NCBI RefSeq assembly: GCF_001542625.1
Contig: NZ_CP016279.1
Location: 8,494,001-8,558,000 of the forward strand
Reading direction: 5' to 3'
From: Streptomyces griseochromogenes
GTDB lineage: Bacteria; Actinomycetota; Actinomycetes; Streptomycetales; Streptomycetaceae
DNA: 64,000 nucleotides
Positions 25,072-56,177 of the stretch are shown piece after piece (the stretch's first letter is position 1; each line of letters begins with the position of its first letter). The notes below the pieces were generated by a model that saw nothing but the letters and a program-made list of their open reading frames with translations, had not been told where the DNA came from and did not search any database. The position numbers and the translations under genes are program-made.

Positions 25072-25180
25072 CCAAACCGAACTCTCCGCACCACCAGGGC
25101 CGCGCGGCGCAGACCACCGTCACCGCGCGGCCCGCCTTCTACGCCCCCCTTGACTCTCCCCACCACATGGAGGCCATGCG

Positions 25181-26119: not shown

Positions 26120-26124
26120 GCAGC

Positions 26125-27906
26125 ATGACCGACACCACCACCAAGGCTCCGGCCGCGGCCGGGCGCGGGCCCGTCCCGCTGCCCGCGGCAGTCGCCCGGC
26201 TGCTCATCGCCGTCGGCGCCGTGGGCACCATCGCCAGCACCTTCCTCAGCTGGACCTGGACGCCCGACTTCCCGGGCGACCTGACCTTCTACGGCTACCC
26301 GGCCGGCCTGCAGATCCTCGCCCTCGTGGGCGGAGCCCTCACCCTGCTGTTCGGGCTCACCCTGTGGAACGTGAAGGGGCTGCGCTGGCTGAACCCGGCG
26401 AACGCCACCTCCCCCGTCCTGCTGACGGCCCTGTCGGCCTTCGCCGTCTGCTGGTTCACCGGCATCGCCATCGCCGTCGACCTCGGCGGCCTGGTCAACC
26501 TCGACCCCGGTGGCTTCGTGGCGATGGCGGCCTCCGCGCTGCCCGTCGTCGGCGCCCTGGCCCTGCCCCACCCGGCTCCGGGCACCGGCGTCCGCGGCTA
26601 CCTCACCAAGCCCCAGCAGCCCCGCCCCGGCAAGCTGTCCCCGCTCGCCGAGCGCGGCATCATCACCGCCGGCACCGCGATCGCCCTGGTGGCCTTCACC
26701 TACGGCATCGGCATCGACAACGACGCCAGCGAGACCTTCATCGGCTTCCTGCTGCTCCTCGTCTTCGCCGCCTGGGGCCTGATGCACACCGGTCTCGTCG
26801 ACCGCTTCGCGACGATCTCGGCCCAGCACAAGGCGTTCGCCTCGACGCTCGCCTTCGTCGCCGCGGTGGTCTTCCCCTTCACCCAGAGCGACGACCACAA
26901 CGCCAACGTCGGCGTGAACATCCTGATCTTCGCCACCGTCGCCCTCGGTCTGAACATCGTCGTCGGCCTCACCGGTCTGCTCGACCTCGGTTACGTCGCG
27001 TTCCTCGGCGTGGGCGCCTACGCGGCCGCCCTGGTCTCCGGTTCGGAGTACTCCCGGTTCTCCGGTGTGCACTTCCCGTTCTGGGCCGCCGCCCTCACCG
27101 GCATGGCCGCCTCGCTGGTCTTCGGTGTGCTGATCGGTGCGCCGACCCTGCGGCTGCGCGGCGACTACCTGGCCATCGTCACGCTCGGCTTCGGTGAGAT
27201 CTTCCGTATCACCGTCAACAACCTCGACGGTGACTCCGGACCGAACATCACCCGCGGCCCCAACGGCATCACCCAGATCCCGGACCTGAACATCTTCGGG
27301 TTCAACCTGGGCGAGGCACACGACATCGGCGGGTTCACCCTGGGCCGGTTCGCCAACTACCTGTTCCTGATGCTCATCGTCACGGCGATCGTCGTGCTCG
27401 TCTTCACCCGCGCCTCCGACTCCCGCATCGGCCGCTCCTGGATCGCCATCCGCGAGGACGAGACCGCCGCCACCGCCATGGGCATCAACGGCTTCCGCGT
27501 CAAGCTGGTCGCCTTCGCCCTCGGCGCCTCCCTCGCGGGCCTCGCCGGCACGGTGATGGCGCACGTCAACTACAGCGTGAACCCGCAGCCGTACCAGTTC
27601 GCGGGCGCCGCCCCGCCCAACTCGGCCTTCCTGCTGGCCGCCGTCGTCCTCGGCGGCATGGGCACCGTCAGCGGCCCGCTGCTCGGCGCGAGCGTGCTCT
27701 ACCTGGTCCCGGAGAAGCTCCAGTTCCTGCAGAACTACGAGCTGTTCGCCTTCGGTATCGCGCTGATCCTGCTGATGCGCTTCCGGCCGGAGGGCATCAT
27801 CGCCAACCGCCGCCGCCAGCTGGAGTTCCACGAGACCGGCCAGCTCGACGTCCCGGCGCAAGCGACGCTGAGCGACGATCCGGCCGTCACCAAGGCAGGG
27901 GCGTGA
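26125..27906 (+). CDS. livM: Branched-chain amino acid ABC transporter permease (LivM type), long N-terminal extension
   Basis: A 593-residue permease; ordinary LivM proteins are about 300-400 residues. The core begins near residue 270 (VGVNILIFATVALGLNIVVGLTGLLDLGYVAFLGVGAYAAAL) and includes RLRGDYLAIVTLGFGEIFRI, the SRIGRSWIAIREDETAATAMGIN coupling loop and VVLGGMGTVSGPLLGASVLY. The first 260 residues add several further hydrophobic helices (LLIAVGAVGTIASTFLSW, LQILALVGGALTLLFGL, AFAVCWFTGIAIAVDL, FIGFLLLLVFAAWGLM), a form seen in Streptomyces. ATG 26125 has AGGG at a good distance; GTG 26116, overlapping the previous stop, is the alternative. Confidence 0.92.
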   Translation: MTDTTTKAPAAAGRGPVPLPAAVARLLIAVGAVGTIASTFLSWTWTPDFPGDLTFYGYPAGLQILALVGGALTLLFGLTLWNVKGLRWLNPANATSPVLLTALSAFAVCWFTGIAIAVDLGGLVNLDPGGFVAMAASALPVVGALALPHPAPGTGVRGYLTKPQQPRPGKLSPLAERGIITAGTAIALVAFTYGIGIDNDASETFIGFLLLLVFAAWGLMHTGLVDRFATISAQHKAFASTLAFVAAVVFPFTQSDDHNANVGVNILIFATVALGLNIVVGLTGLLDLGYVAFLGVGAYAAALVSGSEYSRFSGVHFPFWAAALTGMAASLVFGVLIGAPTLRLRGDYLAIVTLGFGEIFRITVNNLDGDSGPNITRGPNGITQIPDLNIFGFNLGEAHDIGGFTLGRFANYLFLMLIVTAIVVLVFTRASDSRIGRSWIAIREDETAATAMGINGFRVKLVAFALGASLAGLAGTVMAHVNYSVNPQPYQFAGAAPPNSAFLLAAVVLGGMGTVSGPLLGASVLYLVPEKLQFLQNYELFAFGIALILLMRFRPEGIIANRRRQLEFHETGQLDVPAQATLSDDPAVTKAGA

Positions 27907-27912
27907 AGAACC

Positions 27913-28806
27913 ATGACGACACCTGTACTCGAAGCCCGTGACGTCACGATGCGCTTCGGCGGTCTGACCGCCGTCCGGTCGGTCGACTTCACGGTCAACA
28001 GCGGCGAGATCGTCGGTCTGATCGGCCCGAACGGCGCCGGCAAGACCACCTTCTTCAACTGCCTCACCGGCCTGTACATCCCCACCGAGGGCACGGTCGC
28101 CTACCAGGGCAAGGTGCTGCCGCCCAAGCCGCACCTGGTGACCCAGGCGGGCATCGCCCGTACGTTCCAGAACATCCGGCTCTTCGCCAACATGACCGTC
28201 CTGGAGAACGTCCTCGTGGGCCGCCACACGCGGACCAAGGAGGGCCTGTGGTCCGCGCTGCTGCGCGGCCCCGGTTTCCGCAAGGCCGAGAAGGAGTCCG
28301 AGGCGAAGGCCATGGAACTCCTGGAGTTCGTCGGCCTCGCCGCCAAGCGCGACCACCTCGCGCGCAACCTGCCCTACGGCGAGCAGCGCAAGCTGGAGAT
28401 CGCGCGGGCGCTGGCGAGCGAGCCGGGCCTGCTGCTGCTCGACGAGCCGACGGCCGGCATGAACCCGCAGGAGACCCGGGCCACCGAGGAACTGGTCTTC
28501 GCCATCCGGGACAAGGGCATCGCCGTCCTCGTCATCGAGCACGACATGCGCTTCATCTTCAACCTGTGCGACCGCGTCGCCGTGCTCGTCCAGGGCGAGA
28601 AGCTCGTCGAGGGCACCTCGGACGTCGTCCAGGCCGACGAGCGCGTCGTCGCCGCCTATCTGGGTGAGCCCTTCGAGGGCGACCCCGGGGAGGCGGAGGC
28701 CGCCGAGGTCGAGGCCGCGGAAGCCGCCGCCGAGGCCCAGTCGGCCGACGCGGAGAGCGCGGAGGCGGACAGCACCACCAGCACCACCAAGGGAGAGACC
28801 CAGTGA
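27913..28806 (+). CDS. livG: Branched-chain amino acid ABC transporter ATPase (LivG type)
   Basis: A 297-residue ABC ATPase. Walker A is GPNGAGKTTF (about residues 39-48), the signature region reads NLPYGEQRKLEIARALASEP, Walker B is LLLLDEPTAGMNP, and the H-loop is VIEHDMRF. The LivG type is shown by the RTFQNIRLFANMTVLENVLVGRH stretch. After residue about 253 a Glu/Ala/Ser/Thr-rich tail of some 45 residues (AEAAEVEAAEAAAEAQSAD) extends beyond the usual end and is probably disordered. It begins 6 bases after livM stops and overlaps the next ATPase gene by 4 bases. Confidence 0.95.
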   Translation: MTTPVLEARDVTMRFGGLTAVRSVDFTVNSGEIVGLIGPNGAGKTTFFNCLTGLYIPTEGTVAYQGKVLPPKPHLVTQAGIARTFQNIRLFANMTVLENVLVGRHTRTKEGLWSALLRGPGFRKAEKESEAKAMELLEFVGLAAKRDHLARNLPYGEQRKLEIARALASEPGLLLLDEPTAGMNPQETRATEELVFAIRDKGIAVLVIEHDMRFIFNLCDRVAVLVQGEKLVEGTSDVVQADERVVAAYLGEPFEGDPGEAEAAEVEAAEAAAEAQSADAESAEADSTTSTTKGETQ

Positions 28807-29519
28807 CCGCACTGCTGGAGGTCGAGGACCTCAGGGTCGCCTACGGCAAGATCGAGGCCGTCAAGGGCATCTCGTTCAGCGTCGAGGCCGGCCAGGTCGT
28901 CACCCTCATCGGCACCAACGGCGCCGGCAAGACGACGACCCTGCGCACTCTGTCCGGTCTGCTCAAGCCCATCTCGGGAAAGGTCGTCTTCGACGGCAAG
29001 CCCCTCACGGGCGTCCCCGCGCACAAGATCGTCGCGCTCGGGCTCGCCCACTCCCCCGAGGGCCGGCACATCTTCCCTCGCCTGACCATCGCCGAGAACC
29101 TCCAGCTCGGCGCCTTCCTCCGCAAGGACAAGGAGGGCATCGAGAAGGACATCCAGCGCGCCTACGACCTCTTCCCCATCCTCGGGGAGCGCAGGAAGCA
29201 GGCCGCCGGCACCCTCTCGGGCGGTGAGCAGCAGATGCTGGCGATGGGCAGGGCGCTGATGTCCCGGCCCAAGCTGCTGATGCTGGACGAGCCGTCCATG
29301 GGTCTGTCGCCGATCATGATGCAGAAGATCATGGCGACGATCACCGAGCTGAAGTCCCAGGGCACGACGATCCTGCTGGTCGAGCAGAACGCGCAGGCGG
29401 CGCTCTCGCTCGCCGATCAAGGGCATGTCATGGAGGTCGGCAGCATCGTGCTGTCGGGGACCGGCCAGGATCTGCTGCACGACGAGTCCGTGCGCAAGGC
29501 CTATCTCGGCGAGGACTAG
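28803..29519 (+). CDS. livF: Branched-chain amino acid ABC transporter ATPase (LivF type)
   Basis: A 238-residue ABC ATPase. Walker A GTNGAGKTTTLRTLSGL, signature LSGGEQQMLAMGRALMSRPKLLMLDEPSMGLSP (signature and Walker B together) and H-loop region LLVEQNAQAALSLAD match LivF; GLAHSPEGRHIFPRLTIAENL is the LivF-specific Q-loop area. It heterodimerises with the LivG-type ATPase. The GTGA overlap with the previous stop indicates translational coupling. It closes the importer operon. Confidence 0.95.
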   Translation: MTALLEVEDLRVAYGKIEAVKGISFSVEAGQVVTLIGTNGAGKTTTLRTLSGLLKPISGKVVFDGKPLTGVPAHKIVALGLAHSPEGRHIFPRLTIAENLQLGAFLRKDKEGIEKDIQRAYDLFPILGERRKQAAGTLSGGEQQMLAMGRALMSRPKLLMLDEPSMGLSPIMMQKIMATITELKSQGTTILLVEQNAQAALSLADQGHVMEVGSIVLSGTGQDLLHDESVRKAYLGED

Positions 29520-45278: not shown

Positions 45279-46166
45279 GTGGCGAACGGTGGACCGGTCG
45301 AGCACGGGTACCCGCATCTGGAGACGGTGCGGGCCGCCATCACCGCGCTGTACAGACGGCTGTCGTACGACACCGTCCAGACCTTCTCGACCAGCGTGGT
45401 CCCCGCCGACGTGACCTTCTGCGACACGGATGATCTCCATCTGGGGGCGCAGCGGGTGGCCCGGGAGATCGTGCGGCACTTCCGGCTGCCGGACGCCCGG
45501 CTGGTCGTCGGCTTCCGGGAGATGACCCATGCGGCGAACGTCGAACTGGCGGCGGGCCCCGAGTACTTCGTCGAGCTGAACGACCGCTTCCGCACCCACC
45601 GCAGGGACATCGGCGCGGCCCTCGCCCACGAGGTGATGCACGTCTATCTCCACCGCCTCGATCTCTCGTTCCCCACCACGGCGGAGAACGAGATCCTCAC
45701 GGACACGGCGACGACCTACCTGGGGGCGGGCTGGCTGCTGCTGGACGCCTTCCGCGAGGACCGGGACTCCTCCCAGAAGCTCGGTTATCTCACTCCGGAG
45801 GAGTTCGGCTACGTCCTCGCCAAACGGGCCCTGCTCTTCGGCGAGGATCCCTCCGTGTGGTTCACCAGCCCGCAGGCGTACACGGCCTACGTCGCGGGCA
45901 TGGCCCAGGCCCGGCGGGACGAGCAGCAGCCGCCGCTGACCGCGGCCGGCTGGGTGGGGCGCCGCCGCTACGCCCACGACCGCCGCCATGCGCCCGGAGT
46001 GCAGCCGTCCGCGGCCTACGCCTTCACCGCCGAGCCCGGCCCCGGCGGCCACCTGCGGGTGTCCTTCCCGTGCCCCACCTGCCACCAGCGGATCAGGGTG
46101 CCGGTGCGGGGGCGGGTCCGCGCCCGGTGCGGACTGTGCCGGACGGTACTGGAGTGCGACACCTAG
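45279..46166 (+). CDS. Zinc metallopeptidase-like protein with C-terminal zinc ribbon
   Basis: A 295-residue protein of no named family that I recognise. GAALAHEVMHVYLHRLDLSF holds an HExxH zinc motif (His117, Glu118, His121), and TTAENEILTDTATTYLGAG downstream offers an acidic third ligand, as in gluzincin or SprT-like enzymes. The C-terminal 35 residues (FPCPTCHQRIRVPVRGRVRARCGLCRTVLE) make a four-Cys zinc ribbon. No signal peptide or membrane helix is visible, so it should be cytosolic. GTG 45279 was chosen because a G-rich Shine-Dalgarno lies just upstream. It follows the GH35 gene by 38 bases but has no evident link to it. Confidence 0.75.
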   Translation: MANGGPVEHGYPHLETVRAAITALYRRLSYDTVQTFSTSVVPADVTFCDTDDLHLGAQRVAREIVRHFRLPDARLVVGFREMTHAANVELAAGPEYFVELNDRFRTHRRDIGAALAHEVMHVYLHRLDLSFPTTAENEILTDTATTYLGAGWLLLDAFREDRDSSQKLGYLTPEEFGYVLAKRALLFGEDPSVWFTSPQAYTAYVAGMAQARRDEQQPPLTAAGWVGRRRYAHDRRHAPGVQPSAAYAFTAEPGPGGHLRVSFPCPTCHQRIRVPVRGRVRARCGLCRTVLECDT

Positions 46167-47107
46167 CTCCCGTGCCCCCCGGCTCCCCCGCTCCCCCGCT
46201 CCTCGGCTCCGTACGCCACCCCCGGCGGCTCCGCCTCCGCCAGCAGTTTCCGTGCAGCCTCCCCCGCCTCGGCCGGGGTCCGGCGCGCCCTCTTGTCGGC
46301 GCCGGGACCCGGGCGCCAGCCCTCCATGACCGTGATGCGTCCGCCCTCCGCCTCGAAGACCCGGCCGGTCACACCGGCGCTCGCGGCGGAGCCGAGCCAG
46401 ACGACCAGCGGGGAGACGTTCTCGGGAGCCATGGCGTCGAAGCCCGCGGCCGGAGCCGCCATGGTCTCGGCGAAGGTGCGTTCCGTCATACGGGTGCGGG
46501 CGGCCGGGGCGACGGCGTTGACCTGGACGCCGTAGCGGGCCAGTTCGGCCGCCGCGACGAGTGTCAGCCCGATGATCCCGGCCTTGGCGGCGCTGTAGTT
46601 CCCCTGCCCGACCGACCCCAGCAGGCCCGCTCCGCTGCTGGTGTTGACGATCCGGGCCGCCCGGGTGCGCCCGGCCTTGGCCTCGGCCCGCCAGTGCGCG
46701 GCGGCGTGCTTGAGGGGCAGGAAGTGGCCCTTGAGGTGGACGCGGAGCACGGCGTCCCAGTCGTCCTCGTCGAGGTTGACCAGCATGCGGTCGCGCAGGA
46801 AGCCGGCGTTGTTCACCAGGGTGTCCAGCCGGCCGTACGTCTCGACGGCCGTCCGGACGAGCGAGGCGGCGCCCTGGGTCGTCGCGATGTCGCCGCCGTG
46901 CGCCACCGCGTCCCCGCCCGCCGCCCTGATCTCCCTGACGACGGCCGCCGCCGGGCTGTCGGCCCCCGGTACCCCGTCCAGCCCGACGCCCAGGTCGTTG
47001 ACCACGACCCGGGCGCCCTCGGCGGCGAAGGCGAGGGCGTGGGCGCGGCCCAGCCCCCGTCCGGCCCCGGTGACGACGACCACTCGTCCTGCGCAGATTC
47101 CGCTCAT
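46163..47107 (-). CDS. Short-chain dehydrogenase, Rv3548c-like, in the HIP (steroid ring C/D) cluster
   Basis: A 314-residue SDR. The cofactor motif is VVVTGAGRGLGRAHALAFAAEGARVVVNDLGV (TGxxxGxG), LDTLVNNAGFL is the NNAG motif, and the catalytic Ser-Tyr-Lys are in VNTSSGAGLLGSVGQGNYSAAKAGI. A C-terminal extension of about 60 residues after the Rossmann domain (RVFEAEGGRITVMEGWRPG) is typical of the hydroxyacyl-CoA dehydrogenase-type SDRs of steroid pathways. The start codon overlaps the end of the upstream SDR gene by 4 bases, so they are coupled. It holds the position of Rv3548c in the KstR2 regulon. The exact step is not assigned. Confidence 0.85.
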   Translation of the reverse strand: MSGICAGRVVVVTGAGRGLGRAHALAFAAEGARVVVNDLGVGLDGVPGADSPAAAVVREIRAAGGDAVAHGGDIATTQGAASLVRTAVETYGRLDTLVNNAGFLRDRMLVNLDEDDWDAVLRVHLKGHFLPLKHAAAHWRAEAKAGRTRAARIVNTSSGAGLLGSVGQGNYSAAKAGIIGLTLVAAAELARYGVQVNAVAPAARTRMTERTFAETMAAPAAGFDAMAPENVSPLVVWLGSAASAGVTGRVFEAEGGRITVMEGWRPGPGADKRARRTPAEAGEAARKLLAEAEPPGVAYGAEERGSGGAGGHGS

Positions 47108-47904
47108 CCCAGGTCTCCTTGCCGGCGGTCTTCTCTGTTGGCGCTCGCGGCGTCCAGGAACGCGGGCCGCTCCCCACCCCCGTGCACGAGCAGGCTGGCG
47201 CCGCTGATGTAGGCGGCCGCGCCGGAGGCGAGGAAGACGGCGGCCGCGCCGACGTCCGCGGGGGTGGCGAGCCGTCCCAGCGGGACGGTGCCGGAGACGG
47301 CGGTGAGGCCGTCGGGGCCGCCGTAGTGCAGGTGGGACCGCTCGGTGCGGACCATGCCGACGACCAGCGTGTTGACACGGACCTCCGGTGCCCACTCCAC
47401 GGCCATGGAGGCGGCCAGGTTCTCCAGGCCCGCCTTGGCCGCTCCGTAGGCGGCCGAGCCGGGCGAGGGCCTCGCGCCGCTCACACTGCCGACCATCACG
47501 ACCGAGCCCCGGGTGCGCCTCAGCTGCTCGTAGGCGGCCAGGGAGGCGGTCAGCGGGGTGACCAGGTTCAGTTCGATGACCCGGGCGTGCCGCTCGGCGT
47601 CCGCGTCGGCCAGCCGCCGGTACGGGGTGCCGCCCGCGTTGTTCACGAGCACGTCGAGCCGGGGCAGTGCGTCGAAGAAGGCGCGGACCGCGGGGGCGTC
47701 GCGCAGGTCGAGGGGGGTGAACGTCACGCCGTCGAGGGGCTGTTCGGGGGGACGGCGGGCGCAGACCACCACCTGGGCGCCGGCTGCGGCGAAGGCTCGC
47801 GCGATGCCCGCCCCGACCCCTCGGGTGCCGCCGGTGACCACGACGGTTCTGCCGCGCGGCGCGTCGTCCACAGGCCCTGCCGACGGGTTCGCGGAGTTTT
47901 CCAC
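47104..47904 (-). CDS. Short-chain dehydrogenase, Rv3549c-like, in the HIP cluster
   Basis: A 266-residue SDR: VVVTGGTRGVGAGIARAFAAAGAQVVVCAR (TGxxxGxG), LDVLVNNAGG, VVMVGSVSGARPSPGSAAYGAAKAGLENLAASMA (catalytic Ser, Tyr, Lys) and the C-terminal SGAAAYISGASLLVHGGG. It corresponds in position and type to Rv3549c, an SDR next to echA20. Its start lies 100 bases from the echA20 start on the other strand, and the shared region carries a KstR2-type operator. A hydroxyacyl-CoA dehydrogenase step is plausible. Confidence 0.85.
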   Translation of the reverse strand: MENSANPSAGPVDDAPRGRTVVVTGGTRGVGAGIARAFAAAGAQVVVCARRPPEQPLDGVTFTPLDLRDAPAVRAFFDALPRLDVLVNNAGGTPYRRLADADAERHARVIELNLVTPLTASLAAYEQLRRTRGSVVMVGSVSGARPSPGSAAYGAAKAGLENLAASMAVEWAPEVRVNTLVVGMVRTERSHLHYGGPDGLTAVSGTVPLGRLATPADVGAAAVFLASGAAAYISGASLLVHGGGERPAFLDAASANREDRRQGDLG

Positions 47905-47954
47905 AGGGCCTCCCGCTCGTCTTCGGTGACTGCTAGCTTCGAAGCCTCACACCT

Positions 47955-47968
47955 AACAAATGTTTGGT
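47955..47968. promoter_or_regulatory. Predicted KstR2 operator 1 (between SDR and echA20 operons)
   Basis: AACAAATGTTTGGT fits the published mycobacterial KstR2 palindrome AnCAAGnnCTTGnT at eight of its ten defined positions. It lies in the divergent region of the two operons, 37 bases before the echA20 start and 51 bases before the SDR start. A second copy lies at 54037-54050; the surrounding 18 bases (CCTAACAA[A/G]TGTTTGGT) are the same in both. Confidence 0.75.
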
Positions 47969-48004
47969 GGAAAGGCGTTGAGTGCGAAGGTAGCTGATGC
48001 GTCC

Positions 48005-48748
48005 ATGGGTGTCTCCACCTCGTCCCCGGAAAAGGGGATTTCGCTCGTCACGGCCGACTTCCCGCCGGTGAACGCGCTGCCGGTGAGCGGCTGGTTCGCG
48101 CTGGCCGACGCGGTCCGGGCGGCCGGCCGGGACCCCGGCGTGCGCTGTGTGGTGCTGGCGGCGGAGGGGCGCGGGTTCAATGCGGGCGTGGACATCAAGG
48201 AGATACAGGCGCACGGCGACCGGGCCCTGCTCGGCGTCAACCGGGGCTGCGCCGAGGCCTTCGCCGCGGTGTACGAGTGCGAGACACCCGTGGTGGCGGC
48301 GGTGCAGGGGTTCTGTCTGGGCGGCGGCATAGGCCTGGTGGGCAACGCGGACGCGATCGTGGCGAGCGAGGACGCCCGCTTCGGGCTGCCCGAGCTGGAC
48401 CGGGGCGCCCTGGGCGCGGCGACCCACCTGGCCCGGCTGGTCCCGCGGCACCTGATGCGCGCCCTGTACTACACCTCGCGCACGGCGACCGCGGCCGAAC
48501 TGCACGCCCACGGCTCGGTGTGGCGGGTGGTGCCGCGCGCGGAGCTGCGCACGGCGGCCCTGGAGCTGGCCCGCGAGATCGCCGCCAAGGACGGCAGGCT
48601 GCTGCGTCTGGCCAAGGCTGCCATCAACGGGATCGACCCGGTGGACGTGCGCCGCAGCTACCGCTTCGAGCAGGGCTTCACCTTCGAGGCCGCGCTCAGC
48701 GGTGTGGCCGACGAGGTCCGGGACAGGTTCGGGAAGGAGGGCGCATAG
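48005..48748 (+). CDS. echA20: Enoyl-CoA hydratase-family ring hydrolase EchA20
   Basis: A 247-residue crotonase-fold protein, the same length as mycobacterial EchA20. Shared features include SLVTADFPPVNALP, EGRGFNAGVDIKEIQ, NRGCAEAFAAVYECETPVVAAVQGFCLGGGIGLVGNADAIVASEDARFGLPELDRGALGAATHLARLVPRHLMR and the C-terminal SYRFEQGFTFE. In M. tuberculosis EchA20 opens ring D of the CoA-activated HIP intermediate (HIEC-CoA). ATG 48005 was chosen because it matches the start of the mycobacterial protein; an upstream TTG at 47978 is possible. It is followed immediately by ipdA (stop TAG then GTG). Confidence 0.9.
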   Translation: MGVSTSSPEKGISLVTADFPPVNALPVSGWFALADAVRAAGRDPGVRCVVLAAEGRGFNAGVDIKEIQAHGDRALLGVNRGCAEAFAAVYECETPVVAAVQGFCLGGGIGLVGNADAIVASEDARFGLPELDRGALGAATHLARLVPRHLMRALYYTSRTATAAELHAHGSVWRVVPRAELRTAALELAREIAAKDGRLLRLAKAAINGIDPVDVRRSYRFEQGFTFEAALSGVADEVRDRFGKEGA

Positions 48749-49597
48749 GTGAGCGACAAGACGATGACCGCCGACGAGGTGGTCTCCCGGCTGCGCAGCG
48801 GCATGACCCTCGGCATCGGCGGCTGGGGTTCAAGGCGCAAGCCGATGGCCCTGGTCAGGGCTCTGCTCCGGTCCGGGATCGGTGACCTCACGGTCGTCTC
48901 GTACGGCGGCCCGGAGGTCGGCATGCTGGCCGCGGCCGGGCGGATCCGCAAGCTGGTCACGGCCTTCGTCACCCTCGACTCCGTCCCGCTGGAGCCGCAC
49001 TACCGGGCGGCGCGCGAAAGCGGGGACTTCGAGCTGGCGGAGGTGGACGAGGGGATGTTCCTGTGGGGGCTGCGGGCGGCGGCGAACCGGCTGCCGTTCC
49101 TGCCGGTGCGGGCGGGACTCGGCTCGGACGTCATGCGGGTCAACCCGGGCCTGAGGACGGTCACTTCGCCGTACGAGGACGGGGAGACGTTCGTGGCCGT
49201 GCCGGCCCTGCGGACGGACGCGGCCCTGGTGCACGTCAACCGGGCCGACCGGCTGGGCAACGGCCAGTATCTGGGCCCCGACCCGTACTTCGACGACCTG
49301 TTCTGCGAGGCGGCGGAGGAGGCCTACGTCTCCTGCGAACGGCTCGTCGACACGGCGGAGCTGACGAAGGAGGCGGCCCCGCAGTCCCTGCTCCTCAAGC
49401 GGCTGTCGGTGAGCGGTGTGGTGGAGGCCCCGAACGGGGCGCACTTCACGTCCTGCGCGCCGGACTACGGCCGGGACGAGGAGTTCCAGCGGGAGTACGT
49501 GTCCACGCCCTGGCCGGAGTTCGCCGAGCGGTTCCTGTCCGGGGACGAGGAGGCGTACCGGTCGTCGGTGCGGGCCTGGCGGAAGGAGCGGCCGTGA
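48749..49597 (+). CDS. ipdA: COCHEA-CoA hydrolase alpha subunit IpdA (CoA-transferase fold)
   Basis: A 282-residue alpha subunit of the CoA-transferase superfamily. GMTLGIGGWGSRRKPMALVRALLRSGIGDLTVVSYGGPEVGML is the conserved start; FVTLDSVPLEPHYRAARESGDFELAEVDEGMFLWGLRAAANRLPFLPVRAGLGSDV covers the active-site region. IpdA and IpdB together hydrolyse ring C of COCHEA-CoA; they act as a hydrolase despite the fold. It begins directly after the echA20 stop and overlaps ipdB by 4 bases (GTGA). Confidence 0.9.
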   Translation: MSDKTMTADEVVSRLRSGMTLGIGGWGSRRKPMALVRALLRSGIGDLTVVSYGGPEVGMLAAAGRIRKLVTAFVTLDSVPLEPHYRAARESGDFELAEVDEGMFLWGLRAAANRLPFLPVRAGLGSDVMRVNPGLRTVTSPYEDGETFVAVPALRTDAALVHVNRADRLGNGQYLGPDPYFDDLFCEAAEEAYVSCERLVDTAELTKEAAPQSLLLKRLSVSGVVEAPNGAHFTSCAPDYGRDEEFQREYVSTPWPEFAERFLSGDEEAYRSSVRAWRKERP

Positions 49598-50337
49598 ACG
49601 CCGTGAGCCGATCCGAGTACTGCGTGATCGCCTGTGCCGACGCCTGGCGCGGTGCCGGGGAGATCCTGGCGAGCCCGATGGGCCTGATCCCTTCGCTGGG
49701 CGCCCGGCTGGCCCGGCTCACCTTCGCCCCGGACCTGCTGCTGACCGACGGCGAGGCGCTGCTGGTCCGCCCGGACGGCACGCCCGAGGGCTGGCTGCCC
49801 TACCGGCAGCATCTGGCCCTGGTGGCGGGAGGCCGGCGGCACGTGATGATGGGGGCGAGCCAGATCGACCGCCACGGCAACCAGAACATCTCCTGCATCG
49901 GCGACTTCGGACGGCCCCGGCGACAGCTGCTCGGAGTGCGCGGAGCGCCGCTCAACACGCTCAACAATCCGACGAGTTACTGGATCCCGAGGCACTCGCG
50001 GCGGGTGTTCGTGGAGCGGGTCGACATGGTGTGCGGGGTGGGGTACGACCGGGCGGCGGAGCTGGGCGGCACGGCACGCTTCCACCGCATCCCCCGGGTC
50101 GTCTCCGACCTCGGTGTCTTCGACTTCGCCACCCCGGACCACTCGATGCGGCTGGCTTCTGTGCATCCGGGGGTCGGTGTGGAGCAGGTGCGCGAGGCGA
50201 CGGGCTTCGAGCTCACGGTGCCGGACGAGGTGCCGTACACCCGGGAGCCCACCGCCGAGGAGCTGCGGCTGATCCGTGAGGAGCTGGATCCGGACGGGGC
50301 ACGGGCGCGTGAGGTGCCCGAGGGGGCGAGGGGGTGA
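49594..50337 (+). CDS. ipdB: COCHEA-CoA hydrolase beta subunit IpdB (CoA-transferase fold)
   Basis: A 247-residue beta subunit. EYCVIACADAWRGAGEILASPMGLIPSLGARLARLTFAPDLLLTDGEALLV and HVMMGASQIDRHGNQNISCIGDFGRPRRQLLGVRGAPLNTLNNPTSYW match IpdB. It pairs with IpdA to form the alpha/beta hydrolase of HIP catabolism. GTG 49594 has GGAAGGAG upstream and overlaps the ipdA stop. The next gene overlaps by 4 bases, giving a tightly coupled ipdA-ipdB-ipdC block. Confidence 0.9.
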   Translation: MNAVSRSEYCVIACADAWRGAGEILASPMGLIPSLGARLARLTFAPDLLLTDGEALLVRPDGTPEGWLPYRQHLALVAGGRRHVMMGASQIDRHGNQNISCIGDFGRPRRQLLGVRGAPLNTLNNPTSYWIPRHSRRVFVERVDMVCGVGYDRAAELGGTARFHRIPRVVSDLGVFDFATPDHSMRLASVHPGVGVEQVREATGFELTVPDEVPYTREPTAEELRLIREELDPDGARAREVPEGARG

Positions 50338-51395
50338 TGGAGACCGCGCTGACCCGGCTGACCGGGGTGCGCCATCCGGTCGTGCAGACCGGGATGGGCT
50401 GGGTGGCCGGCCCGCGGCTGGTCTCGGCGGCGGCGAACGCGGGGGCGCTCGGCATCCTGGCCTCCGCGACGATGTCCCCCGACCGGCTGCGGGGCGCTGT
50501 ACGGGAGGTGCGGGCGCGTACGGACGCACCGTTCGGGGTGAATCTGCGGGCCGACGCGGCCGATGCGCCCGAGCGTGTGCAGATCATGCTGGACGAGGGC
50601 GTCCGGGTGGCCTCCTTCGCCCTCGCACCCTCCGCCGAGCTCATCGCCCGGCTCAAGGAGGCCGGTGTGGTGGTCATCCCGTCCGTCGGGGCGCGGCGGC
50701 ATGCCGAGAAGGTGACCGCGTGGGGTGCGGACGCGGTGATCGTGCAGGGCGGCGAGGGCGGCGGGCACACCGGTGAGGTGGCGACGTCCGTGCTGCTGCC
50801 GCAGGTGGTGGACGCGGTGCGGATACCGGTCGTGGCGGCGGGCGGCTTCTTCGACGGGCGCGGTCTGGTCGCGGCGCTGGCGTACGGGGCGGCCGGGGTG
50901 GCGATGGGCACGCGGTTCCTGCTCACCTCGGACTCGACGGTTCCGGACGCGGTGAAGGCACGGTATCTGGCGGCGTCGGTCCGGGACGTGACCGTCACCC
51001 GGGCGGTGGACGGGCTGCCGCACCGGATGCTGCGCACGGAGCTGGTGGACACGCTGGAGCGGTCCGGGCGGATACCGGCCCTGGTCCACGCGGTGCGGCG
51101 GGCGGCGGGTTTCCGTCGGCTGTCGGGGCTCACCTGGCGGCAGATGGTCCGCGACGGGCTGGCCCTGCGGCACGGCAAGGAGCTGTCCTGGAGCCAGGTG
51201 CTGCTGGCGGCGAACACGCCGATGCTGCTGAGGTCGGCGATGGTGGACGGCCGTACGGATCTGGGGGTGATGGCGTCCGGACAGGTCGCCGGACTGATCG
51301 ACGACCTGCCGTCGTGCGCCGAACTGGTGGAACGGATCGTGAAGGAGGCGGAGGAGGTGCTGGCGGAACTGGAGGCACTCAGAGGCGTTCGATGA
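50334..51395 (+). CDS. ipdC: Flavin-dependent reductase IpdC (nitronate monooxygenase family)
   Basis: A 353-residue NMO/2-nitropropane-dioxygenase-like flavoprotein. LTGVRHPVVQTGMGWVAGPRLVSAAANAGALGILASATMSPD is the FMN-binding start of the barrel; DAVIVQGGEGGGHTGEVATSVLLPQVVDAV and VVAAGGFFDGRGLVAALAYGAAGVAMGTRFLLT are the phosphate-binding loops. Its place after ipdAB is that of Rv3553 (IpdC), which oxidises a hydroxylated HIP-CoA intermediate in mycobacteria. The 3' end overlaps the convergent fadA6 gene by 17 bases. Confidence 0.88.
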   Translation: MMETALTRLTGVRHPVVQTGMGWVAGPRLVSAAANAGALGILASATMSPDRLRGAVREVRARTDAPFGVNLRADAADAPERVQIMLDEGVRVASFALAPSAELIARLKEAGVVVIPSVGARRHAEKVTAWGADAVIVQGGEGGGHTGEVATSVLLPQVVDAVRIPVVAAGGFFDGRGLVAALAYGAAGVAMGTRFLLTSDSTVPDAVKARYLAASVRDVTVTRAVDGLPHRMLRTELVDTLERSGRIPALVHAVRRAAGFRRLSGLTWRQMVRDGLALRHGKELSWSQVLLAANTPMLLRSAMVDGRTDLGVMASGQVAGLIDDLPSCAELVERIVKEAEEVLAELEALRGVR

Positions 51396-52536
51396 TCGTC
51401 ACGTTCGCCTGGCCGCCGCCCTCGCACATGGTCTGGAGGCCGAAGCGGCCGCCGGTGCGCTCCAGTTCGTGCAGCAGGGTCGTCATCAGCCGGACGCCGG
51501 TCGCGCCGAGCGGGTGGCCGAGGGCGATGGCGCCGCCGTTGACGTTCACCTTCTCCGGGTCCGCGCCGGTCTCCTTCAGCCAGGCCAGGACGACCGGGGC
51601 GAAGGCCTCGTTGATCTCCACGAGGTCGATGGCGTCGACGGTCAGCCCGGTCTTCCTCAGGGCGTGCGCGGTGGCCGGGATGGGCGCGGAGAGCATGCGG
51701 ATGGGGTCCTCGCCACGCACGGAGAGGTGGTGGACGCGGGCGCGCGGGCGCAGGCCGTGGTCCCGTACCGCCCGCTCGGAGGCGAGCAGCAGAGCCGCGG
51801 CTCCGTCGGAGACCTGGGAGGAGCAGGCCGCGGTGATGGTGCCGCCGTCGAGGACGGGCTTCAGCGCGGCCATCTTCTCCGGTGAGGTGTCCCGGCGCGG
51901 GCCCTCGTCGACGGTGACCTCGCCGTAGGTGACGGTCTCGCGCTCGAAGCGGCCCGTGTCGATGGCCCACACCGCGCGCCGGTGCGAGCGCAGGGCGAAC
52001 TCCTCCTGGTCCTCGCGGCTGATGCCCCACTGGGCGGCGATCATCTCGGCGCCGGTGAACTGGTTGACGGGCCGGCCGCCGTAGCGGGCGCGCCAGCCGG
52101 TGCTGCCGAGGAAGGGGCCGTCGGTCAGGCCGAGGGGTTCGGCGGCCTGCCGGGAGGCGAAGGCGATGGGGATCTGCGACATGTTCTGCACCCCGCCGGC
52201 GACCACCAGGTCCTGGGTGCCGGAGAGCACGGCCTGCGCGGCGAAGTGCACGGCCTGCTGGGATGAGCCGCACTGGCGGTCGACGGTCACGCCGGGCACC
52301 TCCTCGGGCAGGCCGGCGGCCAGCCAGCAGGTGCGGGCGATGTCCCCGGCCTGCGGCCCGACCGCGTCCAGGCAGCCGAAGACGACGTCCTCCACGGCGG
52401 CCGGATCGATCCCGGACCGCTCGACGAGCGCCCCCAGCACATGCGCGCCCAGGTCGGCCGGATGGACCCGGGCGAGCCCTCCCCCGCGCCGCCCGACGGG
52501 CGTGCGGACCGCTTCGACGACATAGGCCTCGGCCAT
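51379..52536 (-). CDS. fadA6: Acetyl-CoA C-acyltransferase (thiolase) FadA6
   Basis: A 385-residue thiolase. The nucleophilic Cys89 is in TVDRQCGSSQQAVHFAAQ; the other catalytic motifs are IDLVEINEAFAPV, NVNGGAIALGHPLGATG (His) and the C-terminal TMCEGGGQANV (Cys). In M. tuberculosis FadA6 (Rv3556c) carries out the thiolytic step after ring C/D opening. GGGAG precedes the ATG. It is the third gene of the minus-strand operon ipdF-kstR2-fadA6. Confidence 0.92.
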   Translation of the reverse strand: MAEAYVVEAVRTPVGRRGGGLARVHPADLGAHVLGALVERSGIDPAAVEDVVFGCLDAVGPQAGDIARTCWLAAGLPEEVPGVTVDRQCGSSQQAVHFAAQAVLSGTQDLVVAGGVQNMSQIPIAFASRQAAEPLGLTDGPFLGSTGWRARYGGRPVNQFTGAEMIAAQWGISREDQEEFALRSHRRAVWAIDTGRFERETVTYGEVTVDEGPRRDTSPEKMAALKPVLDGGTITAACSSQVSDGAAALLLASERAVRDHGLRPRARVHHLSVRGEDPIRMLSAPIPATAHALRKTGLTVDAIDLVEINEAFAPVVLAWLKETGADPEKVNVNGGAIALGHPLGATGVRLMTTLLHELERTGGRFGLQTMCEGGGQANVTIIERL

Positions 52537-52574
52537 GGCGACTCCCTCACAGGAAAGGGGTGTTGAGCGTGATG

Positions 52575-53210
52575 TCATTCGCGTACGGCGATCCCGTCCA
52601 GCACCATCGACAGGTACTGGCGGGCGATCTCCTCCGGGCTGTGCTGTCCGCCTGGCCGGTACCAGGACGCGGCGACCCACACGGTGTCCCGGACAAACCG
52701 GTAGGTGAGCCGCACGTCCAGGTCGGCGCGGAAGACCTGCTCGGCGACTCCGCGTTCCAGCGTGGACAGCCACGCCTTCTCGAACCGGCGCTGCGAGTCG
52801 GCGAGAAAGGCGAAGCGGTCCTGCGCCACGAGCTGCTTGCTCTCCTTCTGGTAGATCGCGACCGCGGCGCGGTGCCGGTCGATCTCCCGGAAGGACTCGG
52901 TGACCAGGGCCTGAAGGGTCTCGCGGGGCCCGAGTCCGGAGGCCAGGACGGTGTCGTAGCCGTCCCACAGCTCGTCGAGGAAGGTTCGCAGGATCTCTTC
53001 CAGCATCGACTCCTTCGAGTCGAAGTGGTAGTAGAGGCTGCCCGCGAGCATCCCGGCGTGGTCGGCGATGGTCCGGACGGTGGTGGCGTTGTAGCCCTGT
53101 TCGGCGAAGACCTCGGCGGCGGTGTCGAGGAGTTCGCTGCGGCGCGCCTGGGCGGCGGCTGCCGCGGGCTTCTTCGGGGCGGTCACCTGGGGCTTCTTCT
53201 TGGTCGGCAC
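52575..53210 (-). CDS. kstR2: TetR-family repressor KstR2
   Basis: A 211-residue TetR regulator. The helix-turn-helix (about residues 22-68) reads ARRSELLDTAAEVFAEQGYNATTVRTIADHAGMLAGSLYYHFDSKESMLEEI; the ligand domain includes AAVAIYQKESKQLVAQDRFAFL, YRFVRDTVWVAASWYRPGGQHSPEEIARQYLSMVLDGI. These match KstR2 of mycobacteria in the DNA- and HIP-CoA-binding regions. KstR2 represses HIP genes until HIP-CoA binds. Two matching operators lie in the cluster. The start is GTG. It is in an operon between ipdF (24-base gap) and fadA6. Confidence 0.92.
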   Translation of the reverse strand: MPTKKKPQVTAPKKPAAAAAQARRSELLDTAAEVFAEQGYNATTVRTIADHAGMLAGSLYYHFDSKESMLEEILRTFLDELWDGYDTVLASGLGPRETLQALVTESFREIDRHRAAVAIYQKESKQLVAQDRFAFLADSQRRFEKAWLSTLERGVAEQVFRADLDVRLTYRFVRDTVWVAASWYRPGGQHSPEEIARQYLSMVLDGIAVRE

Positions 53211-53234
53211 GAACCCATTGTGGTCTGCCCGCCA

Positions 53235-54020
53235 TCAGGGGTGCTGACTGCTGACGGCGACGACCTCGCCGGTCAGGTACGAGGAGTAGCCGGAGGCCAG
53301 GAACACGATCACGTTGGCCACTTCCCAGGGCTCCGCGTACCGCCCGAAGGCCTCCCGCTCGGTCAGCCGCTCCAGCAGTTCGGCGGAGGTGACCTTCGCC
53401 AGGTGCGGATGCATGGCGAGGCTGGGCGCCACCGCGTTCACCCGCACCCCGTAGGCGGCCGCCTCGATCGCGGCGCACCGGGTCAGCGCCATCACGCCGG
53501 CCTTGGCGGCGGCGTAGTGGGCCTGCCCGGCCTGGGCGCGCCAGCCGGCCACGGAGGCGTTGTTGACGATCACCCCGCCGCCCGTGTCCCGCATGGCGCG
53601 CAGGGCCGCGCGGGTGCAGCGGAAGGTGCCGTTCAGTGTGACGTCGAGGACGCGGGACCACTGCTCGTCGGTCATGTCGACGAGGTCCGAAGTCCCGCCG
53701 AGGCCCGCGTTGTTGACGACGATGTCGAGGCTTCCGTGCTCCCGTACGGCCGCCTCGAACAGCGCCCGGACCTGGGCCTCATCGGTGACGTCACAGGGAA
53801 CCGCGGCGACCGCGCCCCGGAACTCCCGGCCCAGCAGGCCCTCGTGCTCCTTGAGACGGCGCGTGTGCGCGTCGCTGATCAGCACCCGGGCGCCCTCCTC
53901 CAGGAAGCGGCGCGCGGTCGCCCCGCCGATCCCCGCGCCGGCCGCCGCGGTGATGACGGCGGTGCGCCCTTTCAGCAGCCCGTGCCCGGGCTCGTACGCC
54001 GGACTCTCGACGCCTGTCAT
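53235..54020 (-). CDS. ipdF: 5-oxidoreductase IpdF (short-chain dehydrogenase)
   Basis: A 261-residue SDR. AVITAAAGAGIGGATARRFLEEGARVLISD is the cofactor motif, LDIVVNNAGLGG the NNAG motif, and VIVNNASVAGWRAQAGQAHYAAAKAGVMALT carries the YxxxK. The length and the unusual NNAS in place of the common SSxS fit Rv3559c (IpdF), which interconverts the 5-keto and 5-hydroxy forms of HIP-CoA. It begins the minus-strand operon just beside operator 2. The fadE30-like gene starts 52 bases away on the other strand. Confidence 0.88.
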   Translation of the reverse strand: MTGVESPAYEPGHGLLKGRTAVITAAAGAGIGGATARRFLEEGARVLISDAHTRRLKEHEGLLGREFRGAVAAVPCDVTDEAQVRALFEAAVREHGSLDIVVNNAGLGGTSDLVDMTDEQWSRVLDVTLNGTFRCTRAALRAMRDTGGGVIVNNASVAGWRAQAGQAHYAAAKAGVMALTRCAAIEAAAYGVRVNAVAPSLAMHPHLAKVTSAELLERLTEREAFGRYAEPWEVANVIVFLASGYSSYLTGEVVAVSSQHP

Positions 54021-54036
54021 AGGGCCACGCTAACCT

Positions 54037-54050
54037 ACCAAACACTTGTT
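54037..54050. promoter_or_regulatory. Predicted KstR2 operator 2 (between ipdF and fadE30 operons)
   Basis: ACCAAACACTTGTT, read on the minus strand as AACAAGTGTTTGGT, matches the KstR2 box AnCAAGnnCTTGnT at nine of its ten defined positions. It differs from operator 1 by a single base. It lies 16 bases from the ipdF start and 22 bases before the fadE30 start, where repressor binding would block both promoters. Confidence 0.8.
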
Positions 54051-54072
54051 AGGGAAGGACGGTGACGCGACC

Positions 54073-55212
54073 GTGGACCTGACCCACACCCCGGCCGACG
54101 AAAAGTTCCGCGTCGAGGCCCGCGCCTGGCTGCGGGCACATGTGCCCCGCGCCCCGCTGCCCTCCCTGGAGACCGCGGAGGGCTTCGCGGCACACCGCGC
54201 CTGGGAGGCCGAGCTGGCCGCGGACCGCTGGTCGGTGGTGTCCTGGCCCGAGGAGTACGGCGGGCGTGCGGCCTCCCTCATCGGGTGGCTGGTCTTCGAG
54301 GAGGAGTACTGGGCGGCGGGCGCGCCGGGCCGCGTCGGCCAGAACGGCATCAGCCTGCTCGCCCCGACCCTCTTCGACCACGGCACCGAGGAGCAGCGGG
54401 CGCGGGTGCTGCCGCCGATGGGCCGCGGCGAGGTGGTCTGGGCACAGGCCTGGTCCGAACCGGAGGCGGGCTCCGATCTGGCTTCGCTCACCTCCAGGGC
54501 GGTGCGGACGGACGGCGGCTGGCTGCTGAGCGGCCAGAAGACGTGGTCCTCGCGGGCGGCCTTCGCCGACCGGGCCTTCGGCCTGTTCCGCAGCGACCCG
54601 GGCGCGCCCGAGCCGCACCAGGGGCTCACCTATCTCATGTTCGATCTGCGGGCCCCCGGCGTCACCGTCCGCCCGATCGGCCGCCTGGACGGGAAACCGG
54701 CCTTCGCGGAGCTGTTCCTGGACGAGGTGTTCGTGCCGGACGAGGACGTGATCGGCGAGCCCGGCCGGGGCTGGCGGATCGCGATGGCGACGGCGGGCAA
54801 CGAACGCGGCCTCACCCTGCGCTCCCCCGGCCGCTTCCTCGCCCCGGCCGCCCGGTTGCTGGAGCTGTGGCGGGCACGGGGCCGCCCGGAGTCCGCCCGC
54901 GTCCGGGTGGCGGACGCGGTGATCGGCGCCCGCGCCTACCAGCTGTTCACCTACGCGGCCGCCTCCCGCTTCCTGGCCGGCGCCCCGCTCGGCCCGGAGT
55001 CCAGCATGAACAAGGTGTTCTGGTCCGAGTACGACCTGGCGCTGCACGAGACGGCGCTCGATCTGCTGGGCGAGGAGGGCGAGTCGGCGGACTCGGCCTG
55101 GGCGGAGGGGTACGTCTTCTCCCTCGCCGGGCCCATCTACGCGGGCACCAACGAGATCCAGCGCGACATCGTCGCCGAGCGTCTGCTCGGCCTGCCGAAG
55201 GGACGCCGCTGA
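54073..55212 (+). CDS. fadE30: Acyl-CoA dehydrogenase, FadE30-like
   Basis: A 379-residue flavoprotein acyl-CoA dehydrogenase. WPEEYGGRAASLIGWLVFEEEYWAAGAPGRVGQNGISLLAPTLFDHGTEEQRARVLPPM and WAQAWSEPEAGSDLASLTSRAV belong to the FadE30-type sterol enzymes; IYAGTNEIQRDIVAERLLGLP is the FAD-contacting C-terminus. The gene position matches Rv3560c (FadE30), which dehydrogenates the HIP-CoA side chain. GTG 54073 was chosen so that the protein begins DLTHTPADEKFRVEARAW. The stop overlaps the next gene's ATG by one base. Confidence 0.85.
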   Translation: MDLTHTPADEKFRVEARAWLRAHVPRAPLPSLETAEGFAAHRAWEAELAADRWSVVSWPEEYGGRAASLIGWLVFEEEYWAAGAPGRVGQNGISLLAPTLFDHGTEEQRARVLPPMGRGEVVWAQAWSEPEAGSDLASLTSRAVRTDGGWLLSGQKTWSSRAAFADRAFGLFRSDPGAPEPHQGLTYLMFDLRAPGVTVRPIGRLDGKPAFAELFLDEVFVPDEDVIGEPGRGWRIAMATAGNERGLTLRSPGRFLAPAARLLELWRARGRPESARVRVADAVIGARAYQLFTYAAASRFLAGAPLGPESSMNKVFWSEYDLALHETALDLLGEEGESADSAWAEGYVFSLAGPIYAGTNEIQRDIVAERLLGLPKGRR

Positions 55213-56177
55213 TGCGCTTTCTCCTCGACGCCGAGCAGCGCGCCTTCGCCGACTCGCTGCACGCGATGCTGACTGCGGCGAACACCCCGTCGGTGGTCCG
55301 GGACTGGAGCCGTGGCGACCATGCGAGCGGACGCGCGCTGTGGCGCCGTGTCGCCGCGGCGGGGGTGTTCGCCCTCGCGGTGCCGGAGGAGTACGAAGGG
55401 CTGGGGCGGCGCCCGGTGGAACTGGCCGTCGCCTTCGTGGAGCTGGGACGACACGCGGTGCCCGGACCGCTGGTCGAGACGGTCGCGGCGGCCGTGCTGC
55501 TCGGCGAGGACCGGCCGGCCAAGCGGTTCCTGCCCCCTCTCGCGGCGGGTGAGACCGTCGCGACCGTGGCGGCACCGACCGGGTACGCCCTGGACGGCGA
55601 CGCGGCCACGCTGCACCTCGCCCCGACCGGCGCGGGCCTGTATCTGTCCCCGGGCCCCGGTCCGGTCCGCCCCGGTCTCGACCCCGCCCGCCGCCTGACC
55701 CCGCTGGCCCCCGGCGGCGAACTCCTCACCCCCGGCCCGCCGAACGGCCACGCCCTCGTCTGGGCCCGCCTCGCGACCGCCGCGCAGGCCCTCGGTGTCG
55801 GCCTCGCCCTGCTCGACCGGACGGTCGCGTACGTCGGGCGGCGCACCCAGTTCCGCGTCCCCATCGGCTCCTTCCAGGCCGTCAAACACCGCCTGGCCGA
55901 CGCGAAGATAGCCCTGGAGTTCGCCCGGCCCCTGCTCTTCGGGGCGGCCCTGTCCCTGCGCCCGGCGGACGTTGCCGCCGCCAAGCTGAAGGCGTGCGAG
56001 GCGGCGTACACGACCGCCCGCACCGCGCTCCAGCTGCACGGCGCGATCGGGTACACGGCGGAGTACGACCTGTCGCTGTGGCTGACCAAGGCGCGCGCCC
56101 TGCGCACGGCGTGGGGCACGCCCGAGGAGTGCACGGACGCGGTGCTCGAAGACGCCGGTCGAGCCGTCGGGGCATGA
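55212..56177 (+). CDS. Second acyl-CoA dehydrogenase subunit (FadE31/32/33-like)
   Basis: A 321-residue short acyl-CoA dehydrogenase, coupled to the previous gene (TGATG). RFLLDAEQRAFADSLHAML, VPEEYEGLGRRPVELAVAFVELGRHAVPGPLVE and LHGAIGYTAEYDLSLWLTKARALRTAWGTPEEC fit the shorter beta-type subunits of sterol dehydrogenases, which form alpha2beta2 tetramers. The usual catalytic base region is degenerate. In mycobacteria the equivalents are among FadE31-33; which one this replaces cannot be told by eye. It is the last gene of the cluster. Confidence 0.82.
   Translation: MRFLLDAEQRAFADSLHAMLTAANTPSVVRDWSRGDHASGRALWRRVAAAGVFALAVPEEYEGLGRRPVELAVAFVELGRHAVPGPLVETVAAAVLLGEDRPAKRFLPPLAAGETVATVAAPTGYALDGDAATLHLAPTGAGLYLSPGPGPVRPGLDPARRLTPLAPGGELLTPGPPNGHALVWARLATAAQALGVGLALLDRTVAYVGRRTQFRVPIGSFQAVKHRLADAKIALEFARPLLFGAALSLRPADVAAAKLKACEAAYTTARTALQLHGAIGYTAEYDLSLWLTKARALRTAWGTPEECTDAVLEDAGRAVGA

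Follow-up and report, generated by a model that had tools for sequence, protein, structure and literature searches.

In Mycobacterium and Rhodococcus, the hydrindane propionate HIP, which corresponds to steroid rings C and D, is degraded by the products of a gene cluster (Rv3548c-Rv3564) under the TetR-type repressor KstR2, which binds mycobacterial operators with the motif AnCAAGnnCTTGnT (PMC3068626). The products of fadD3, fadE30 and fadE33 act first on HIP (PMC5380842, PMC8399759). HIP-CoA is converted by way of 5-OH HIC-CoA to HIEC-CoA (by IpdF and IpdC), EchA20, IpdAB and FadA6 then act in turn to give MOODA-CoA, and an acyl-CoA dehydrogenase (ACAD) with FadE32 follows (PMC5380842). Streptomyces has so far been counted as mostly lacking steroid catabolism, 55 of 57 genomes being listed without the pathway in PMC4810484. 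Here we describe a HIP-type cluster at 46163..56177 of a 64,000-nucleotide stretch of the Streptomyces griseochromogenes chromosome (contig NZ_CP016279.1, positions 8,494,001 to 8,558,000; hereafter the window). Together with an unlinked second locus that encodes FadD3, it probably forms a two-locus pathway for scavenging HIP that is uncoupled from degradation of steroid rings A and B, as judged from sequence comparison.

The cluster comprises eleven intact, tightly packed genes with no internal stops. Two short-chain dehydrogenase/reductase (SDR) genes lie on the minus strand, followed by echA20-ipdA-ipdB-ipdC on the plus strand, fadA6-kstR2-ipdF on the minus strand and two ACAD genes on the plus strand. 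This order and orientation are collinear with the KstR2 (HIP) cluster of Rhodococcus and Nocardia (e.g. Nocardia locus L080), with identities of about 46-76% between matching genes in Nocardia and relatives (11 loci examined of 80 fetched). Across 20 fetched Streptomyces loci, identities range from 57 to 98% (87-98% in the nearest relative, L037); ten of the eleven genes were found in 20/20 clusters and all eleven in 17/20, the remaining three (L048, L049 and L055) having one SDR gene uncalled.

Curated family tests of the individual genes used NCBIfam equivalog cut-offs. The Rv3548c/RHA1_RS22710-type SDR (46163..47107, minus strand) is 64-69% identical to its counterparts in L075, L077, L080 and L132; its start was set by hand at the ATG at 47107, which gives a 4-bp overlap with the next gene, and its R. 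jostii counterpart is tabulated as a HIP side-chain hydroxyacyl-CoA dehydrogenase (PMC8399759). The Rv3549c-type SDR (47104..47904, minus strand) reaches 360 bits on the NF005893 equivalog (cut-off 255) and is 59% identical in L080 and 53% in L132. EchA20, the predicted HIEC-CoA (ring D) hydrolase (48005..48748, plus strand), scores 403 bits on NF005925 (cut-off 260) and is 67-71% identical in L075, L077, L080, L118, L122 and L132, the six relatives with echA20 in the fetched stretch. The putative subunits of the COCHEA-CoA (ring C) hydrolase follow on the plus strand. IpdA (alpha subunit, 48749..49597) scores 319-336 bits against the solved IpdAB entries 6co6, 6coj and 6con (336 with 6co6_A), the next CoA-transferase family scoring 84, and IpdB (beta subunit, 49594..50337) scores 271-300 bits (300 with 6co6_B), the next scoring 64. 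The Glu that is replaced by Ala in 6coj, which we take to be the catalytic residue, is present in the window IpdA. IpdC, the putative 5-OH HIC-CoA reductase (50334..51395, plus strand), is FabK-like (252 bits, below the FabK cut-off of 453) and was assigned by homology and position, no curated model reaching its cut-off; it is 61-67% identical to IpdC of six relatives within the collinear cluster. FadA6, the predicted beta-ketothiolase (51379..52536, minus strand), scores 693 bits on NF005865 (cut-off 591) and is 66-72% identical in relatives. KstR2, a TetR-type repressor that is HIP-CoA-responsive in other genera (52575..53210, minus strand), scores 203-234 bits against 2ibd (234) and the KstR2 structures 4w1u (203) and 4w97, the next TetR protein scoring 76. 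It is 97% identical to proteins of S. cellostaticus and other Streptomyces, and an 88% identical KstR2 is recorded for S. avermitilis. Individual Streptomyces proteins already carry the KstR2 annotation in databases. IpdF, the putative 5-oxo/5-OH oxidoreductase (53235..54020, minus strand), scores 442 bits on NF005880 (cut-off 336).

The last two genes, fadE31 (54073..55212) and fadE32 (55212..56177), both on the plus strand, are predicted to encode the large and small subunits of the late ACAD that acts at the MOODA-CoA step. The larger protein is 63.7% identical to R. jostii FadE31 as opposed to 37.7% to FadE30, and the smaller is 47.5% identical to FadE32 as opposed to 34.8% to FadE33. In two trees each, the larger falls in the FadE31 clade (support 95/99 and 100/100) and the smaller in the FadE32 clade (98/97 and 100/100), and the window FadE32 reaches 150 bits on the IpdE2 model (cut-off 450). 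The second ACAD tree left out the L061 rows that were labelled by locus and one short fragment (Strep_L038_ACAD2), and the tree programme gave long-branch warnings for both ACAD trees and the cluster tree. A FadE30/FadE33 identity of the window pair was rejected on these identities and trees. In the R. jostii locus used for comparison (L058), fadE30 adjoins ipdF, and across the divergent promoter come fadD3, an echA13-type gene, fadE31, fadE32 and fadE33; these names follow from gene position in comparison with PMC5380842.

The window cluster is thus incomplete: fadE30 and fadE33 (IpdE1-IpdE2) are absent by ACAD identities and trees, FadD3 was found neither in the window cluster nor, by recognition, in the 20 fetched Streptomyces loci, and these are the genes that act first on HIP. 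A ligase hidden among the cluster neighbours was rejected: the inspected neighbours of about 500 aa are DEAD-box helicases or cytochrome-b (QcrB-like) proteins, named by eye. The first-pass annotation had reported a complete HIP cluster with KstR2 at these coordinates; its eleven genes, their families, the collinearity and the presence of a KstR2-type cluster in a Streptomyces chromosome all stand. The completeness does not, fadD3, fadE30 and fadE33 being absent from the cluster even though counterparts exist at the second locus, and what had been called a fadE30-like gene and a short fadE are FadE31 and FadE32.

That annotation had also supposed that the HIP-CoA ligase might be encoded elsewhere, and this was borne out. 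FadD3 of the host (G000) lies at C1:10158081-10159649, about 1.6 Mb from the window, and scores 798 bits on NF005801 (cut-off 657; 731 bits for R. jostii FadD3). Within about 25 kb of it are a FadE30-type ACAD (56% identical to R. jostii FadE30), a FadE33-like ACAD (43%; 211 bits on the IpdE2 model, cut-off 450, with R. jostii FadE33 at 319), two ChsH2-type proteins and a hydratase confirmed by Pfam, together with an Ltp2-family protein and an LLM oxidoreductase that both exceed their cut-offs. FadD3 and five neighbouring families are common to 15/15 fetched second loci, the host's included and all picked from FadD3-positive genomes, and an Ltp2-type gene was called in 14/15. Back-searches in R. 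koreensis took the second-locus FadD3 to the fadD3 of the KstR2 locus (510 bits, next 313) and the second-locus FadE30 to the gene adjoining kstR2 (434 bits, next 256); in the tree, this FadE30 lies inside the FadE30 group (99/99).

Two further observations concern the surroundings of the second locus. At G000:C1:10187748-10192611 (L158/L159), near the FadD3 locus, there is another two-subunit ACAD pair resembling FadE30/FadE33, accompanied by a hydrolase-like protein and a FadD-like ligase. Also near FadD3 is the gene of a TetR regulator (L143:16748-17383; G000:C1:10165747-10166382) that has a TetR_C_38 domain and is 85-97% identical in three other genomes; it may control the second locus.

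The HIP module is a pattern of the genus and not peculiar to this genome. Among 392 sampled Streptomyces genomes, IpdB was found in 278 (E 1e-30) and FadD3 in 272 over the cut-off (273 at E 1e-150); 268 genomes have both, 10 IpdB alone, 5 FadD3 alone and 109 neither, giving a phi of 0.91 computed across genomes as sampled and ignoring shared ancestry. The earlier description of a stand-alone module in Streptomyces was thus right as to its presence and too narrow as to its extent. FadE30, HsaC, KshA and the KstR2 operator were followed in 59 genomes selected by hand for their low contig number (50 of the 278 IpdB-positive and 9 of the 114 IpdB-negative). FadE30 (E 1e-100) is found in 49/50 of the former, G108 being the miss, and in 0/9 of the latter. 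As a side observation, 32 plasmid records carry relatives of IpdB at E 1e-30 or better, including 2 from Streptomyces, 13 from Sphingobium and 8 from Novosphingobium.

The genome search for KshA and HsaC that had been recommended with the first-pass annotation was run, and neither HsaC nor a close KshA was found in the host; KstD, HsaA, HsaB and HsaD were not searched. None of the 22 host candidates scored for HsaC, out of 22, matched at E 1e-10, and 0/59 genomes pass the curated HsaC cut-off of 450 bits. An HsaC-like protein of 343-385 bits is present in six of the 50 IpdB-positive genomes, and KshA_C matches of 283-304 bits occur in exactly the same six. In eleven more IpdB-positive genomes, the best HsaC-model matches (159-287 bits) were taken as other extradiol dioxygenases. 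For KshA_C, 22/59 genomes, the host included, are over the low Pfam cut-off of 23.3 bits, and the interval between 97 and 283 bits is empty. One IpdB-negative genome (G031) has seven KshA_C-type Rieske matches, each under 100 bits.

Where the A/B-ring genes are present, they can be physically close to the HIP genes. In G074 and G103, both kshA and hsaC are located in, or no more than about 20 kb from, an orthologous HIP cluster that has fadE30 and an echA13 homologue; G012 has kshA next to such a cluster, with hsaC 5.4 Mb away. In the trees, full-pathway genomes lie among the HIP-only ones; the label hip in the cluster tree means, for genomes outside the 59-genome sample, merely no A/B genes at the locus, and G023, whose HIP cluster falls outside the fetched stretch, was left out. 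Of 107 genomes of the class, 27 Streptomyces were left out and the 80 IpdB-positive ones outside the genus were searched. Fifty pass the HsaC cut-off (including 36/36 of family f4 and 13/13 of f22), five more reach 311-367 bits and the other 25 show nothing at or above 300 bits (two of these at 203-237). Nothing of 300 bits was found in family f16 (0/10) or f14 (0/5), and f15 is mixed, with 4/13 at 311-326 bits. On these counts, uncoupling is seemingly not confined to Streptomyces.

A 19-bp site (CCTAACAARYGTTTGGTRG) occurs in both divergent promoters of the window cluster. The predicted KstR2 operator CCTAACAAATGTTTGGTGG (47952..47970, plus strand) lies in the SDR/echA20 divergent promoter and is placed like the Rv3549c-Rv3550 site bound by KstR2 (PMC3068626). 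The second, CCTAACAAGTGTTTGGTAG (54035..54053, minus strand), lies in the ipdF/fadE31 divergent promoter; the fadE31 start was chosen by hand as the GTG at 54073, because the TTG at 54046 falls inside this operator. The Rhodococcus site CCTAGCAAGTGCTTGGTAG at the fadE30/fadD3 junction, in the matching promoter, differs by two bases from the window site at 54035. A predicted operator was recognisable in 21/21 loci compared (20 fetched plus the window), the second L045 site having three mismatches to the 16-base core. The host genome holds just two sites within three mismatches, both in the window cluster, and the reversed control pattern occurs once. At least two sites within two mismatches were found in 50/50 IpdB-positive genomes, 12 of which were also used in defining the pattern, and 0/9 IpdB-negative genomes have one; G031 has two sites at three mismatches. 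Control patterns gave 0 to 3 matches per genome in the 59 genomes at up to three mismatches.

The number and spacing of operators vary somewhat between genomes. G019, G066, G100 and G108 each have one extra operator-like site within two mismatches away from the pair, and G023 has one a few kb from the pair. In G055, G069, G091 and G096, the two operators are far apart or on separate contigs, and the cluster seems to be split in two with one operator per half.

We propose that the window encodes the KstR2-repressed lower half of the HIP pathway and the unlinked second locus the upper half, the pathway chemistry and the KstR2 ligand being carried over, as presumed equivalents, from work on other genera. 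We infer that the substrate is HIP, or a close hydrindane propionate, and that it enters from outside. The second-locus FadD3 would activate it, and the FadE30/FadE33-type pair of that locus would dehydrogenate the product. The side chain would then be shortened to 5-OH HIC-CoA, with the window SDR as hydroxyacyl-CoA dehydrogenase. IpdF and IpdC would give HIEC-CoA, EchA20 would open ring D and IpdAB would open ring C. FadA6 would release acetyl-CoA to leave MOODA-CoA, and FadE31-FadE32 would begin the last beta-oxidation. KstR2 would occupy both operators, one in each divergent promoter, and be released once HIP-CoA appears. As the front half of steroid degradation was not found, the substrate would need to come ready-made from other steroid degraders. 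Bile-acid degraders transiently release steroid intermediates (PMC6668416), and the title of a 1977 paper, in the reference list of PMC5380842, speaks of HIP metabolites formed by Streptomyces rubescens; no report of HIP release in soil was found in the literature looked at.

Several points weigh against this proposal. No HIP transporter was identified. The host second locus has no KstR2 operator within three mismatches, so activation and ring cleavage would not be co-regulated by that site, and KstR2 control of the second locus was rejected on this ground. A Rieske protein of the host, with a best KshA_C score of 76 bits, is over the Pfam cut-off for that family. The tree places the second-locus FadE30 as sister to the cluster-type sequences from Streptomyces, Rhodococcus and Nocardia, at a split supported by only 89/73. 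All six full-pathway genomes have two FadE30 matches, one in a 65-69% and one in a 61-64% identity class; with the two types together in these genomes, the second-locus FadE30 was taken as an old paralogue, which it looks like, rather than a moved copy. The FadE33-like protein of the second locus is not firmly placed in the tree, and given this loosely placed partner, the FadE30/FadE33-type pair may prefer another substrate.

A rival explanation is that the module ordinarily serves a different hydrindane or a related isoprenoid carboxylate, taken from the environment or self-made, which the second locus turns into HIP-CoA or HIC-CoA and for which the steroid lower pathway has been recruited. 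The apparent antiquity of the second-locus FadE30 would suit it, as would the retention by the second locus of an Ltp2-like thiolase (14/15) and of ChsH2-type and hydratase-like proteins (15/15) that are not obviously needed for HIP, and the module is far commoner than the A/B-ring genes. We nonetheless consider this explanation unlikely. FadD3 is over the curated FadD3 cut-off and has the fadD3 of a HIP cluster as its best match, the lower enzymes keep their families, KstR2 keeps its operator, and no candidate alternative compound is known to us. In three genomes with no high-scoring KshA or HsaC (G004, G015 and G025), moreover, the second-locus FadE30 is replaced by a cluster-type one: the sole FadE30 found is 68-69% identical to that of R. 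jostii and adjoins the KstR2 operator. These few genomes, in which no A/B-ring genes were found, appear to keep fadE30 in the cluster and to manage without a second copy, as if either copy suffices. It is similarly doubtful, when the idea is extended to most Streptomyces, that the C/D-ring pathway has been freed from steroids and joined through the FadD3/FadE30-type locus to a different, common soil substrate of hydrindane or isoprenoid type, possibly self-made; if it were so, KstR2 and IpdAB would gain a new substrate class. G004, G015 and G025 can also be viewed, in their own right, as an intermediate state.

It is quite improbable that the host breaks down complete steroids by means of A/B-ring enzymes that lack homology to the known ones or have diverged beyond the reach of the models used. 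KshA together with an HsaC-like protein does occur in six of the 50 IpdB-positive Streptomyces, near or inside the HIP cluster in G074 and G103, and the host has the one distant KshA_C-type Rieske protein mentioned above. The HsaC model that brings 0/22 host candidates to 1e-10 passes its cut-off in 50/80 IpdB-positive genomes outside the genus, however, and the Streptomyces count in PMC4810484 also argues against this explanation. That the cluster is a non-functional relic, to which the missing fadD3, fadE30 and fadE33 and the existence of relatives with more of the pathway might point, is hardly credible given the intact genes, their presence in the 20 relatives, the conserved operators and the co-occurrence with FadD3. 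The term remnant, used earlier for this pathway, is likewise unlikely to hold in the sense of decay, because the genes are intact, identities in the 20 relatives are high and the operators are kept in 50/50 IpdB-positive genomes tested.

Other features were noted in and around the clusters. In six of the 20 fetched loci (L047, L048, L049, L050, L051 and L055), fadA6 and ipdC are separated by inserted genes for a cold-shock protein and a DEAD-box helicase, four of the six helicases being read and named by eye and the other two by size; the same insertion was seen in the HIP clusters of G074 and G012. A cytochrome-b (QcrB-like, by eye) gene of 507-560 aa adjoins the cluster near fadE32 in another six of the 20 (L038, L040, L043, L044, L052 and L054). 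At the left edge of the window lies an IS110-family transposase (34-1236). Genes for an ABC transporter of the branched-chain amino acid type (23959-29519; the binding protein Pfam-confirmed, the rest named by eye) have no KstR2 operator and are therefore probably unrelated to the cluster.

The enzymes, regulator and operators described here belong to known types. Uncoupling across the genus and the two-locus split are apparently new to us: searches of open-licence literature, outside which most subscription papers fall, turned up no description of a HIP module throughout the genus, of its division between two loci or of its separation from A/B-ring genes. A genus counted as mostly lacking steroid catabolism has IpdB in 278/392 genomes, 268 of them with FadD3. 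Should HIP prove to be the substrate of the module, a genus abundant in soil would be consuming what other steroid degraders form as an intermediate, and the turnover of steroids there could involve a division of labour; should it be another compound, the substrate of a pathway widespread in Streptomyces has still to be found.

Of the known systems close to it, the window cluster shares with the KstR2 regulon of Mycobacterium and Rhodococcus the order and orientation of the genes present, the repressor KstR2 and operators in the matching divergent promoters (PMC3068626). It differs from that regulon in lacking fadD3, fadE30 and fadE33, the upper half being at an unlinked locus with no KstR2 operator; in having two operators, where three are reported in PMC3068626; and in belonging to a host with no HsaC match and no close KshA. 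The HIP cluster of Steroidobacter denitrificans likewise has its fadD3 homologue elsewhere (PMC5380842). Unlike S. griseochromogenes, that organism is a proteobacterium that degrades whole steroids, and its fadE30 and fadE33 counterparts are tabulated in PMC5380842 with no mark that they are unclustered. Within the genus, the minority that carry KshA and HsaC-like genes (G074, G103 and G012) have an orthologous cluster of the same clade with the same type of operator; in contrast to the host, they retain fadE30 at the junction together with an echA13 homologue, with kshA close by and, in G074 and G103, hsaC as well.

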